Made by a program: the position numbers and the translations under genes. A stretch of 64,000 bases of DNA, from NCBI GenBank assembly GCA_022828105.1, contig JAJEJC010000007.1, positions 330,885 through 394,884 on the forward strand, written 5' to 3'. The notes under the pieces are model-generated. The model saw only the letters and a program-made list of their open reading frames with translations, was not told the DNA's origin and searched no databases. Shown piece by piece: positions 2,169-6,809 of the stretch. The DNA is from Dehalococcoidia bacterium. Its GTDB lineage: Bacteria > Chloroflexota > Dehalococcoidia > Bin125. Positions within the stretch are counted from its first letter, which is position 1. The number at the start of each line of letters is the position of its first letter.

Positions 2169-3044
2169 GTGAGCGCGTCACCTGAGCTCTTCGACACCCA
2201 CGCGCACCTGCACGACCCCTGGATCGGCGACGACCTGCCCGAGGTGATGTCCCGCGCCCGCGAGGCCGACGTCGTTCGGATCGTTACGATCGGCTGCTCG
2301 CTCGAAGACAGCCGCAACGCCCTCGCCGTCGCCGAGCAGTACGAAGACGTCTGGGCCACGCTCGGCCTCCACCCCCACGACGCCAAGGACTGGACGGCAG
2401 AGATCGAGTCCGAGTTCCGCGAGATGGCGCAACATGAGAAGGTCGTCGCCATCGGAGAGATCGGCCTTGACTTCTACCGCAATCTCTCGCCGCACGAAGA
2501 CCAGTACGCCGCATTCAGAGCCCAGCTCGCCCTCGCCGACGAGCTCAACCTCCCCGTCGTCATCCACTCCCGAGACGCCCACGAAGAGTGCTACGGCATC
2601 CTCAAGGATTGGGCCGAGTCCCCTTCTCCCCCCGCCGCAGAGGAGGAGATGTCACGACTCGACTCTTCATCTCCCCCCGCTCCGCGGGGGGAGATGTCCC
2701 GTAAGGACAGAGGGGGGCTCCCCATCGGCGTGATCCACTGCTTCTCCGGCGACGCCGACCTTGCCCACCGCTACCACGACCTCGGTTTCCTGATCTCCTT
2801 CGCCGGACCGGTGACGTATCCCAAGAACCACGACCTCCGAGAGGCGGCCGCGTCGTTGCCGATTGAGGCCATCGTCATCGAAACCGACTGTCCCTACCTC
2901 AGCCCCCAACCCCGCCGAGGCAAACGAAACGAACCCGCCAACATCCGCTTCACAGCTCAGCAAATCGCTGAGGTGCGGGGGGAGTCAATCGGAACTGTCA
3001 CCGTCGAGACCACTCGAAACGCCCTCAAGCTGTTCTCTCTCTAA
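2169..3044 (+). CDS. tatD: TatD-family DNase/metal-dependent hydrolase, with an in-frame repeat-derived insertion
   Basis: FDTHAHLHD, GEIGLDFY, VIHCFSG, IETDCPYLSP motifs; GTG start at 2169 chosen because the TatD core begins there. Confidence 0.9.
   Translation: MSASPELFDTHAHLHDPWIGDDLPEVMSRAREADVVRIVTIGCSLEDSRNALAVAEQYEDVWATLGLHPHDAKDWTAEIESEFREMAQHEKVVAIGEIGLDFYRNLSPHEDQYAAFRAQLALADELNLPVVIHSRDAHEECYGILKDWAESPSPPAAEEEMSRLDSSSPPAPRGEMSRKDRGGLPIGVIHCFSGDADLAHRYHDLGFLISFAGPVTYPKNHDLREAAASLPIEAIVIETDCPYLSPQPRRGKRNEPANIRFTAQQIAEVRGESIGTVTVETTRNALKLFSL
2625..2735. repeat. Palindromic repeat (two units) inside tatD; the second unit is a perfect 13-bp stem catctccccccgc/gcggggggagatg
   Basis: 2668-2680 pairs with 2684-2696; followed by gtcccgtaaggacagaggggggctcccc, also found at 34571-34676 and (reverse strand) 46217-46268. 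Confidence 0.85.
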
Positions 3045-3986
3045 CTCCTCGGCGATTCGATTTAGTCTCGGCTCAAGTACCCGCTTGAACTTCGGAATCC
3101 ATCCGATCATCCACTGCTGGATCTCTTCCAGGTCATCGTCTGACATAGACCAGTCAAAGGGACACCTCAGGCTTACCGTTGACCATTTGTGACCTGCCAA
3201 ACGCTCCCAAACGAGTTCCGCACCCAATTCCGATTCGATCTCGCTGCGCTCACGATGCAGCAAATCGAACACTGCACGATCATTATCTGGGGTCAGCCAC
3301 GCTAACACCCGCGCACTACCCGAGCCGTCGCGCAGGACGGTCGAATAGGAACCTATCCTCTGACTCCTGCCCGAGTTGAAATACTGCGCATTCTTACCCG
3401 TCGGTTCCGTTCGATTTGTGTGACCCCGCTCGTGCAGGTCTGTAACCACGGGTAGGAAGAACTCTCGATATCGCTCGGCAGCCGCTGACTGTGAACGATT
3501 GGAGCGGATCGCGGATCGCCGCGACCAGTTGTTGGGAAATGCCACAGCCCGGAACTCAGGCGCCGGCAACGAATCACCGATTCGGACTGCACGCACCGCA
3601 ACGCCGAACACCCTGATTTCCTCTGCCGTCCAGCGATTCAACCAGTCCAACGCTGCGCGATGCTCATCACGGAAATTGGGAGTGATCCAGATCAGCGTTC
3701 GAGCATCACGCCCCGCTGCATACGTCAGCAGTTGCCCCAAATGGCCGTGGTCTGTGCGTTCCAACTGGTTCTCGATCACTACAAACGCCTCATCCTCTTC
3801 GGCCAGGATGTCGACAGCAAACGGGCCGACACCCGCTTCTTGTTCGATGAGGTTCAAATCCAGACCCAATGCAGCACCGAGTTCGTCCAAATGCTCAGCC
3901 AGCCATGGCGTGAAGTCCCGTGATTCATCTCCCCAGATCGCTCTCAGGTCGACTTCTTCCAGTTGACCGAGTTTCGCTGTCGCCAT
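2985..3986 (-). CDS. DUF4268-type protein with N-terminal PD-(D/E)XK-like nuclease domain
   Basis: FAVDILAEEDEAFVVIENQLERTDHGHLGQLLTYAAG resembles PD-(D/E)XK core; C-terminal DUF4268-like region; 3' end overlaps tatD. Confidence 0.7.
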   Translation of the reverse strand: MATAKLGQLEEVDLRAIWGDESRDFTPWLAEHLDELGAALGLDLNLIEQEAGVGPFAVDILAEEDEAFVVIENQLERTDHGHLGQLLTYAAGRDARTLIWITPNFRDEHRAALDWLNRWTAEEIRVFGVAVRAVRIGDSLPAPEFRAVAFPNNWSRRSAIRSNRSQSAAAERYREFFLPVVTDLHERGHTNRTEPTGKNAQYFNSGRSQRIGSYSTVLRDGSGSARVLAWLTPDNDRAVFDLLHRERSEIESELGAELVWERLAGHKWSTVSLRCPFDWSMSDDDLEEIQQWMIGWIPKFKRVLEPRLNRIAEELEREQLEGVSSGLDGDSSD

Positions 3987-4039
3987 GCCACGCATTCCCT
4001 TCCCTGTCCCACTGACCAACCCAGAGTACGCTAGTGCCG

Positions 4040-5020
4040 ATGACCTCCCTTGACCGACTCTATGAGCCGATTGCCGACGATCTGGCGATTGTCGAGGACA
4101 CGCTCTCGCTGGTGGCGCAATCGGACTTTCTGCCGCTGGAGGCGATGCTCAACCAAGTGCTCTCGCGCGGGGGCAAGCGGCTGCGGCCCGCGATCTCGCT
4201 GCTCTGCGGCGGGTTTGGGGACTACGACGCCGACACGCAGATTCCGCTGGCCGCGTCGATCGAGCTGCTGCACACGGCGACCCTGGTCCATGACGATGTG
4301 ATCGACTCAGCCGATACCCGCCGCGGGCACGTCACGGCCAATGCGACATTCGGCAACCCCGCCTCGGTGATGCTCGGCGACTACATGTTCGCCCACGCCG
4401 CCGAGCTGGTCGCGCGGACCGGGCACATCGGGGTGATCCGGCTGTTCGCCGACACGCTGATGGTGATGGCCAAGGGCGAGCTGGCGCAGGATGTGTCCGC
4501 CTTCGACGCCGACTCGGGCACGATGCGCGACTACTACCGGCGCATCCACGGCAAGACGGCGTCGCTGTTTGCGACCGCCGGCGCGGGCGGCGCGATGATG
4601 TCCGCCTGCGACTCCGACACGATCGACTCGCTGCGCGAGTACGGCCGCTCGATCGGCATGGCCTTCCAGATTGTCGACGACATCCTCGACTTCTGCGGCA
4701 CCGAGGAGCAGTTGGGCAAGCCGGTCGGCGGCGACCTCTCGGCCGGCACGCTGACCCTGCCAGCCATCGTGCTGATGGAGGACGCGCCCGACGACAATCC
4801 GATCAACCGTTTTCTCGACGCGAAGGACGAGGACGGACGCGCGGGATTCCTCCACGAGGCGCTCGAGGCCGCACGTCAGGACTCGATCGTCGAGCGTTGC
4901 ATGGACACCGTCGTCGAGTGGCGAGACCGGGGCTTGGCTGCGCTCCACGCCGCCCCGTCCAGCGGCCCCCGACAGCAACTCACCGCCATCGCCGAGTTCG
5001 TCACCCAGCGCGACTTCTAA
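4040..5020 (+). CDS. polyprenyl diphosphate synthase (trans-isoprenyl diphosphate synthase family)
   Basis: LVHDDVIDSADTRRG and QIVDDILDFCG Asp-rich motifs. Confidence 0.92.
   Translation: MTSLDRLYEPIADDLAIVEDTLSLVAQSDFLPLEAMLNQVLSRGGKRLRPAISLLCGGFGDYDADTQIPLAASIELLHTATLVHDDVIDSADTRRGHVTANATFGNPASVMLGDYMFAHAAELVARTGHIGVIRLFADTLMVMAKGELAQDVSAFDADSGTMRDYYRRIHGKTASLFATAGAGGAMMSACDSDTIDSLREYGRSIGMAFQIVDDILDFCGTEEQLGKPVGGDLSAGTLTLPAIVLMEDAPDDNPINRFLDAKDEDGRAGFLHEALEAARQDSIVERCMDTVVEWRDRGLAALHAAPSSGPRQQLTAIAEFVTQRDF
4983..5018 (+). repeat. Left copy of 36-bp direct repeat (3' end of polyprenyl synthase gene)
   Basis: ccgccatcgccgagttcgtcacccagcgcgacttct; one mismatch against 5488-5523. Confidence 0.95.
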
Positions 5021-5033
5021 CTCCGGCAAGCTC

Positions 5034-5525
5034 ATGACTCACGGCGAATCTGAGGAAGGGTATCCGCAGAGGCGGATCATCTTTCCTGCTCACGTGAGGA
5101 ACAGGTTGTTCATTGAACAACGCGGGCGGTGCCGCTACTGCGGTCGCCGCATGAGTAACCATTATCTCGAGATCGATCACAGATGGCCGCTGAGTCGCAA
5201 TGGCGGCAACGAGCTCTCAAACTTGCAGTTGCTCTGCACGGCCTGCAATCTGCGCAAGGGAATCCAGACCGACGAGGAGTTTCGCGATCGCTATTGGCGC
5301 CTGCTGCCTCCTGATGGGTCAATTCCCGACCCACCGATTCCGCAAGACCTGTTCACTCGTGAGACTCAGTTGACGAGGGCAGCGCCTGAGGTTCGATCCA
5401 TTTTCCGTGATCGGTTCGAGGCCGCGAGGCGTCGGCGACAGCCGGCAGGTTGCCTGTTCGCAGCGCTGCTCCTGCTGACCCTGGTGGCCGCCATCGCCGA
5501 GTTCGTCACCCAGCGGGACTTCTGA
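5034..5525 (+). CDS. HNH endonuclease with hydrophobic C-terminal segment
   Basis: GRCRYCGRRMSNHYLEIDHRWPLSRNGGNELSNLQLLCTACNLRKG; C-terminus AGCLFAALLLLTLVAAIAEFVTQRDF. Confidence 0.88.
   Translation: MTHGESEEGYPQRRIIFPAHVRNRLFIEQRGRCRYCGRRMSNHYLEIDHRWPLSRNGGNELSNLQLLCTACNLRKGIQTDEEFRDRYWRLLPPDGSIPDPPIPQDLFTRETQLTRAAPEVRSIFRDRFEAARRRRQPAGCLFAALLLLTLVAAIAEFVTQRDF
5488..5523 (+). repeat. Right copy of 36-bp direct repeat, forming the 3' end of the HNH ORF
   Basis: ccgccatcgccgagttcgtcacccagcgggacttct; same reading frame as left copy. Confidence 0.95.
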
Positions 5526-5554
5526 GCCAACTCCGGCGGGCTTCTCCGCGGGCG

Positions 5555-5995
5555 CTAGTCCCGCTTCTGGGGTTGCGGCTGGGGCTTGAATTCGCGGCCC
5601 TTGTTGGCGATCCGGTCCCGCTTCAGATCGCGTTCCTTGCGGCGATCCTCCCTGGCCAGGCGGCGCTCGGCGATCTTGCGGTCGACCAGGTCGGTGTAGT
5701 CCTGCGTCGACAGCGGCTCCTTCTCGCGGCGCTTGGTGACCTGCGGGTGCTCATAGGGGCGGGCCTGCTTGGGCAGGTACGTCACTTCCTGGCCCAGGTG
5801 CCAGTAGGTGCCCTTGTCGGGAATCCGGCGCGGATAGCCCTGGCGCATGATGAAGGCCGAGAAGGACGACGGCATGACACGCTCGCAGTCGTCGTCGCAC
5901 TCGGGACATGGCTGCGGCTCCGGCGCTTCGCGAATCGGCCTTACGACTTCGAAGATGCCCGCGCACGATTCGCACAGGTATTCATACAACGGCAC
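5555..5995 (-). CDS. FmdB-family zinc-ribbon protein
   Basis: VPLYEYLCESCAGIFEVVRPI...CPECDDDCERV; GTG start at 5995. Confidence 0.8.
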   Translation of the reverse strand: MPLYEYLCESCAGIFEVVRPIREAPEPQPCPECDDDCERVMPSSFSAFIMRQGYPRRIPDKGTYWHLGQEVTYLPKQARPYEHPQVTKRREKEPLSTQDYTDLVDRKIAERRLAREDRRKERDLKRDRIANKGREFKPQPQPQKRD

Positions 5996-6809
5996 GGTCC
6001 TGCTCCTCTCGCTCTCGCTCGGTGGCCGCGGAGGCGGCGTGGCGACCGATTGCCTCCGCGCGTTCCAACGACTCCTGAAAGCCGCCCGAGCGCAATTGTC
6101 CATCCAGCGCCTGCTCCATCGACAGCCGCAGGTGGCGGTCCAGCTCCGCCGACGTGTTGGCGTCAACCCGCACCTGCGACGTCGCTTCGCACGACGAACG
6201 TCTCATATAGCGTAACAATCGAAACACCGGAGAGGACAGCCGCTGTCCGACGCCCGCCTGATGGCAGGACGGACAGACCGCTCCGCCGTCGGCCGGCGCA
6301 TAGCCATTGCCATCGGGACCGAGCACCGCGCGGCAGCGGACGCACTCGTCCAACTCGGGCCGATAGCCCTGCTGGTCGAGAAAGCGCAGCGTGAACCATC
6401 GGCGCACCGCGCGCGGCGCGGATGTCGCCGCCAGCACGTCCAGCGAGCCCTTGAGCAATGCGTAGAGCGGACCCGAGGCGACGTCCAGGTCGGTCGAGCG
6501 GTCGACCAGCTCAGCCATCGCCAACGCCTCGGTCATGCGGTCGACGTCGTCGTGCAGCGAGGGCCACGCGTCGAGCGTCTGGGCGTCGGTGATCACATGC
6601 AGCGATCGGCCTTGCGCGAGCCCAAACTGGCCGCGACTGAGCGGCTCCACATGGCCGGCCAGCTTGCTCAACGGCTTGCGCACGCCCCTGGCGACCGCCT
6701 CGATCCGTCCCCGCGTCGGAGAGAACAGCACGCAGATCCGATCGGCATCGCCGATCGGTCGCTGCCTCAGCACGATCGCCTCTGTGCGAATCGGATGCCG
6801 TCGCGGCAT
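5982..6809 (-). CDS. recO: DNA repair protein RecO
   Basis: TEAIVLRQRPIGDADRICVLFSPTRGRIEAVARGVRKPLSKLAGHVEP. Confidence 0.92.
   Translation of the reverse strand: MPRRHPIRTEAIVLRQRPIGDADRICVLFSPTRGRIEAVARGVRKPLSKLAGHVEPLSRGQFGLAQGRSLHVITDAQTLDAWPSLHDDVDRMTEALAMAELVDRSTDLDVASGPLYALLKGSLDVLAATSAPRAVRRWFTLRFLDQQGYRPELDECVRCRAVLGPDGNGYAPADGGAVCPSCHQAGVGQRLSSPVFRLLRYMRRSSCEATSQVRVDANTSAELDRHLRLSMEQALDGQLRSGGFQESLERAEAIGRHAASAATEREREEQDRAVV

Follow-up and report, generated by a model that had tools for sequence, protein, structure and literature searches.

The stretch of DNA analysed here (64 kb in full, contig 9, 330885-394884; hereafter the window) belongs to a Dehalococcoidia bacterium whose genome is assembled to 2.74 Mb in 10 contigs. 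Towards the left end of the window, a polyprenyl diphosphate synthase gene is followed on the same strand by a short open reading frame (ORF) predicted to encode an HNH endonuclease, and then by a zinc-ribbon gene on the opposite strand (Table 1). The 3' end of the synthase gene is present twice, once in its own place and once as the end of the HNH ORF. The gene directly upstream of the synthase (window 2985-4019, - strand) encodes a DUF4268 protein that matches the PADLOC candidate-defence family PDC-S11 (2.9e-94), and similar genes were seen by eye at the same position in several relatives (G013, G009, G017).

Table 1. Genes and repeat copies at the synthase/HNH locus (window coordinates).
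Feature	Position	Strand	Details
Polyprenyl diphosphate synthase (host gene)	4034..5020	+	Pfam polyprenyl_synt 3.7e-64; native C-terminus TAIAEFVTQRDF
Left copy of duplicated unit	4983..5032	+	36-bp core 4983-5018, synthase 3' end, TAA stop, trailer
HNH endonuclease ORF, 163 aa	5034..5525	+	Pfam HNH 3.6e-12; HNH domain residues 33-87, C-terminal hydrophobic segment
Foreign insert proper (HNH body)	5034..5487	+	GC 0.595, GC3 0.68
Right copy of duplicated unit	5488..5542	+	36-bp core 5488-5523, TGA stop, trailer, joined to native downstream flank
Zinc-ribbon (Zn_ribbon_8) gene	5555..6166	-	Pfam 1.8e-10; natively follows the synthase gene in relatives with an empty site

The two 36-bp cores form a direct repeat, 505 bp apart, in which 35 of 36 positions match. 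The reading frame is identical in the two copies, both ORFs finish with IAEFVTQRDF and a stop codon, and the last 11 amino acids are common to two unrelated predicted proteins; on all of these points (coordinates, spacing, single mismatch and shared in-frame tail) the initial annotation was exact. The similarity extends 3' of both stop codons, reading TAACTCCGGCaaGCT in the first copy (5018-5032) and TgagccAACTCCGGCggGCT in the second (5523-5542), and when one 5-base gap is allowed the repeat reaches about 50 bp. Apart from this gap, the copies differ by a single core base and two trailer bases; the left copy has a TAA stop and is without the five bases, and the right copy has a TGA stop and a TGAGC trailer resembling that of the closest relative (G013). 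The left copy stops one base short of the HNH start codon (ATG at 5034). When the window was resampled 60 times under a third-order Markov model, the longest one-mismatch repeats within 5 kb reached at most 24 bp (mean 18). The 36 bp of the real sequence are thus far above chance expectation, and this is the sole isolated direct repeat of at least 24 bp within 5 kb in the window. The core 28-mer, with up to three mismatches allowed, occurs at only these two places in the whole genome.

The initial annotation had proposed that an HNH gene was inserted at the 3' end of the host gene with the host terminus duplicated, and relatives with an empty site bear this out. In at least 12 genomes of the same genus the zinc-ribbon gene comes next after the synthase gene, in convergent orientation, without an HNH gene in between and with one copy of the repeat. 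A search of 61 genomes gave no HNH match (E<=1e-12) at the synthase site except in the window genome, and the junction between the HNH gene and the duplication is present in one genome assembly only. Synthase orthologues in the genus share 89-96% protein identity and have the C-terminus IAEFVTQRDF or a one-residue variant of it. The close HNH homologues have hydrophobic ends of their own (LLVAVVRSCG, VCIVIAFAI, LALLVVT) and not IAEFVTQRDF as a native terminus, again in line with the initial annotation, so the shared tail belongs originally to the synthase and was taken over by the HNH ORF. The approximately 11 synthase-derived residues replaced about six native C-terminal residues of the HNH protein. 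The HNH start codon is conserved in position, lying 16 residues before an FP motif in the two nearest homologues, which places the left join at the gene start. Comparison with the relatives thus shows that the HNH gene was inserted at the synthase 3' end, with the host terminus duplicated and the synthase intact.

The HNH ORF scores 46.7 and 43.5 bits against cut-offs of 21.4 and 27.5 for the Pfam families PF01844 and PF14279, respectively, and is thereby a member of both. Like stand-alone HNH nucleases in the Pfam families HNH/HNH_5, it has the conserved Cys pair and DH...N HNH core. It weakly resembles the HNH domains found in IscB, Cas9 and PtuB, but the ORF (~160 aa with a C-terminal hydrophobic helix) is without the partner domains of those systems. 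It is assigned to a family of small, stand-alone proteins with a predicted C-terminal hydrophobic helix that is found in a few genomes of the class, with homologues (E<=1e-18) in 13 of 393 class genomes, the window genome counted; one homologue lies in an uncultured Dehalococcoidia MAG. In the same genus one other genome, that of a sister species (G004), has the gene, at a different locus, and there is no HNH gene at the synthase site of G004. By composition the HNH gene of the window is foreign, with a GC3 of 0.68 vs 0.90 for the synthase. For the window genome (G000) and G004, the HNH genes give a pS of 0.74 (saturated) and a pN of 0.18, and the synthase genes a dS of 0.60 and a dN of 0.02. 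Since the HNH synonymous sites are saturated as against a synthase dS of 0.60, the two HNH copies do not behave as simple orthologues and were probably not simply inherited from a common ancestor, and the pN of 0.18 shows that purifying selection has acted on the protein. The neighbours of the HNH gene in G004 (L038:2500-8240) encode an ApeA-type HEPN protein, a type ISP/IIG restriction-methylase fragment and a DUF5615 PIN-like protein, neighbours that would fit a defence island.

On balance, the foreign HNH gene was probably inserted by illegitimate recombination just behind the synthase gene. On the left, the incoming DNA would have been attached behind the synthase trailer. On the right, the HNH 3' end (...GTGGCCGCC) would have been linked back to the end of the synthase gene at CCGCCATC, ~50 bp upstream of the point where the left join departs, so that the segment between the two join points would have been kept twice. 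The HNH ORF has lost roughly its last six native codons and now terminates in frame with the synthase tail and a TGA stop. The joins may have been made by microhomology-guided strand or template switching or, alternatively, by homologous recombination on one side and an illegitimate join on the other (homology-facilitated illegitimate recombination). At the right join, at CCGCC, the HNH end GTGGCCGCC (G004: GTAGCCGTC) and the synthase end CACCGCC share a few bases, by which microhomology is only suggested. Sliding identity to relatives revealed no recombination breakpoint in the synthase gene, so the one-sided homologous version is unproven. Homology-facilitated and illegitimate recombination of foreign DNA have been described as an outcome of transformation in competent cultures of Acinetobacter baylyi, Pseudomonas stutzeri and Streptococcus pneumoniae (PMC6382021). 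The window case would resemble these in that a foreign segment is joined via limited or one-sided homology with end points that are not fixed; it differs in that they were seen in competent cultures, whereas here the event is inferred from a genome. A foreign gene, unique non-homologous junctions and a duplication of variable length are all found, as expected of illegitimate recombination. Against it, the left join lies exactly at the gene start and the right join is in frame (chance ~1/3), and both joins look tidy for an accidental event.

The differences between the two copies imply that some time has passed since the duplication, and would also suit a two-step history in which the HNH gene entered without any duplication and slippage or gene conversion later gave the HNH gene its copy of the synthase end. 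This history is unlikely, however, as the right copy runs straight into the native flank (the TGAGC trailer and the zinc-ribbon gene), as expected if it were the original end, and a separate event would require a second precise exchange.

Prophages and islands integrate in tRNA genes and in some protein genes and restore the host gene, and in the case of e14 in icd the end of the host gene is duplicated. The integration of prophage e14 in the isocitrate dehydrogenase gene of Escherichia coli takes place inside a protein-coding gene without loss of function (PMC4632033). The outcome in the window is similar to e14-type integration, with the insertion at the gene end, the upstream gene intact and its 3' end duplicated at the far side of the insert, and the single copy of the host-gene end at the empty sites is equally as expected of an element that carried the synthase 3' end as its attP and whose integrase restored the host gene; the 505-bp unit would then represent an element that is minimal or has decayed and that was moved by functions supplied in trans. 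Unlike e14, however, the window case has yielded no integrase, element backbone or attP-like copy, and the duplicated end is fused in frame to the cargo gene. The insert consists of the HNH ORF alone, with no integrase or recombinase in it, the 28-mer is found nowhere else in the genome, and a 26-bp core of the 36-mer, searched as a phage attP, had no exact match in IMG/VR viral contigs. Full-length HNH homologues were likewise absent from phage and plasmid records and from viral contigs, where only partial matches to the HNH domain were found. The initial annotation had also suggested looking for other HNH genes flanked by duplicated host-gene ends, and this search came back empty: for the 13 HNH homologues checked, no flanking repeat was convincing and none had a long duplication (L037 and L044 each show one pair of 18-20 bp, well away from the gene, and L040 has an interspersed repeat with more than two copies). 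We therefore regard att-type integration as quite unlikely.

The predicted protein has a conserved HNH domain and its gene adjoins conserved coding sequence, both of which would be consistent with homing, if the HNH protein had cleaved the 3' end of the synthase gene and the break had then received a copy of the HNH gene. Such gene conversion would not be expected to leave a ~50-bp flanking duplication, though, and the putative target is not split, as both copies remain whole. The HNH homologues found lie elsewhere, none of them beside a synthase gene, and the closest one sits in the putative defence island, in a family with a C-terminal hydrophobic helix. Homing at this site seems most improbable. 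The terms 'mobile', 'att-site' and 'homing' in the initial annotation are not sustained by an insert that is only an HNH ORF, has no terminal inverted repeats and has homologues with neither long duplications nor a synthase gene beside them.

A comparable arrangement occurs at one other locus of the same genome (C9, ~444.6-446.9 kb; L072:12600-14900), where a 207-aa ORF upstream of an MBL-fold gene lies between 27-bp copies of the MBL leader. In G005 and G011 (L112, L114) a different ORF, aspartic-protease-like by eye and with no Pfam match, lies between 62-72-bp copies of the MBL leader plus first codons, and in G004 and G012 the MBL site is empty, with no ORF. G005 and G011 each have two divergent versions of the aspartic-protease-like ORF, and these pairs look like additive recombination between related loci, with one side homologous and the other illegitimate. 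A scheme of this type could equally be drawn for the synthase/HNH locus. The MBL locus as a whole is a hotspot between tyrS and the MBL-fold gene with variable small ORFs. For the own genome it was the one further case of gene-end duplication in our scan for isolated repeats, which covered, with overlaps counted, ~1.13 Mb from the own genome and 1.08 Mb from three relatives (G004, G013 and G011) and in which no other clear case was found. Judged on spacing, copy number and gene position rather than one by one, nearly all other repeats in the scan seem to stem from paralogues, repeated domains or REP-like families. Multi-copy REP-like palindromic repeats such as GGGGGAGATGCCGAAGGCAGAGGGGGG are scattered in L073, L075, L079, L101 and L108 of the own genome, with up to 20 counts.

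The direct repeat on both sides of the insert and the flanked ORFs at the MBL locus might also be explained by transposition in trans by an unidentified element that makes a long target-site duplication. We consider this very unlikely, as the duplications (27, ~50 and 62-72 bp) are not of a fixed length, no inverted repeats bracket the insert, no transposase was seen in it, the flanked ORFs are unrelated and no further clear gene-end duplication turned up in the sequence scanned (~1.1 Mb from the own genome, 1.1 Mb from the three relatives). A recurrent enzyme-driven process in the genus that inserts small single ORFs (the HNH nuclease, the aspartic-protease-like protein and proteins of unknown type) at gene borders with duplications of ~30-70 bp, the window case included, is more doubtful still. 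Duplications that vary in length and surround unrelated ORFs fit general recombination and not the action of the HNH enzyme. Variable length and rarity together favour illegitimate recombination, assisted by microhomology or homology, over att-site or homing insertion.

Insertion with duplication of the host end is well supported at this locus, and represents a known kind of recombination event and not a demonstrated mobile or homing element. Our literature searches found no description of the synthase/HNH locus. With its empty sites and outgroups, it offers a clean example of the entry of a foreign gene without a visible mobile element, and of how the adjacent gene can supply the newcomer with a ready-made C-terminus and stop codon. 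The locus calls for caution in two respects: a common protein tail need not imply common ancestry, and a duplicated gene end beside an endonuclease gene is not by itself a sign of homing or att-site integration.

Small ORFs were also seen at the opposite end of the synthase gene in two relatives. Next to the synthase start in L011 and L013 (G014, G002) lies a small ORF, VVYMITDKPGGRLYIGSTTDLIRRIWEHK, that by eye only is GIY-YIG-nuclease-like, and in both genomes it is flanked by CGCCCCCGCGCAGGCGGGGGC-type repeats.
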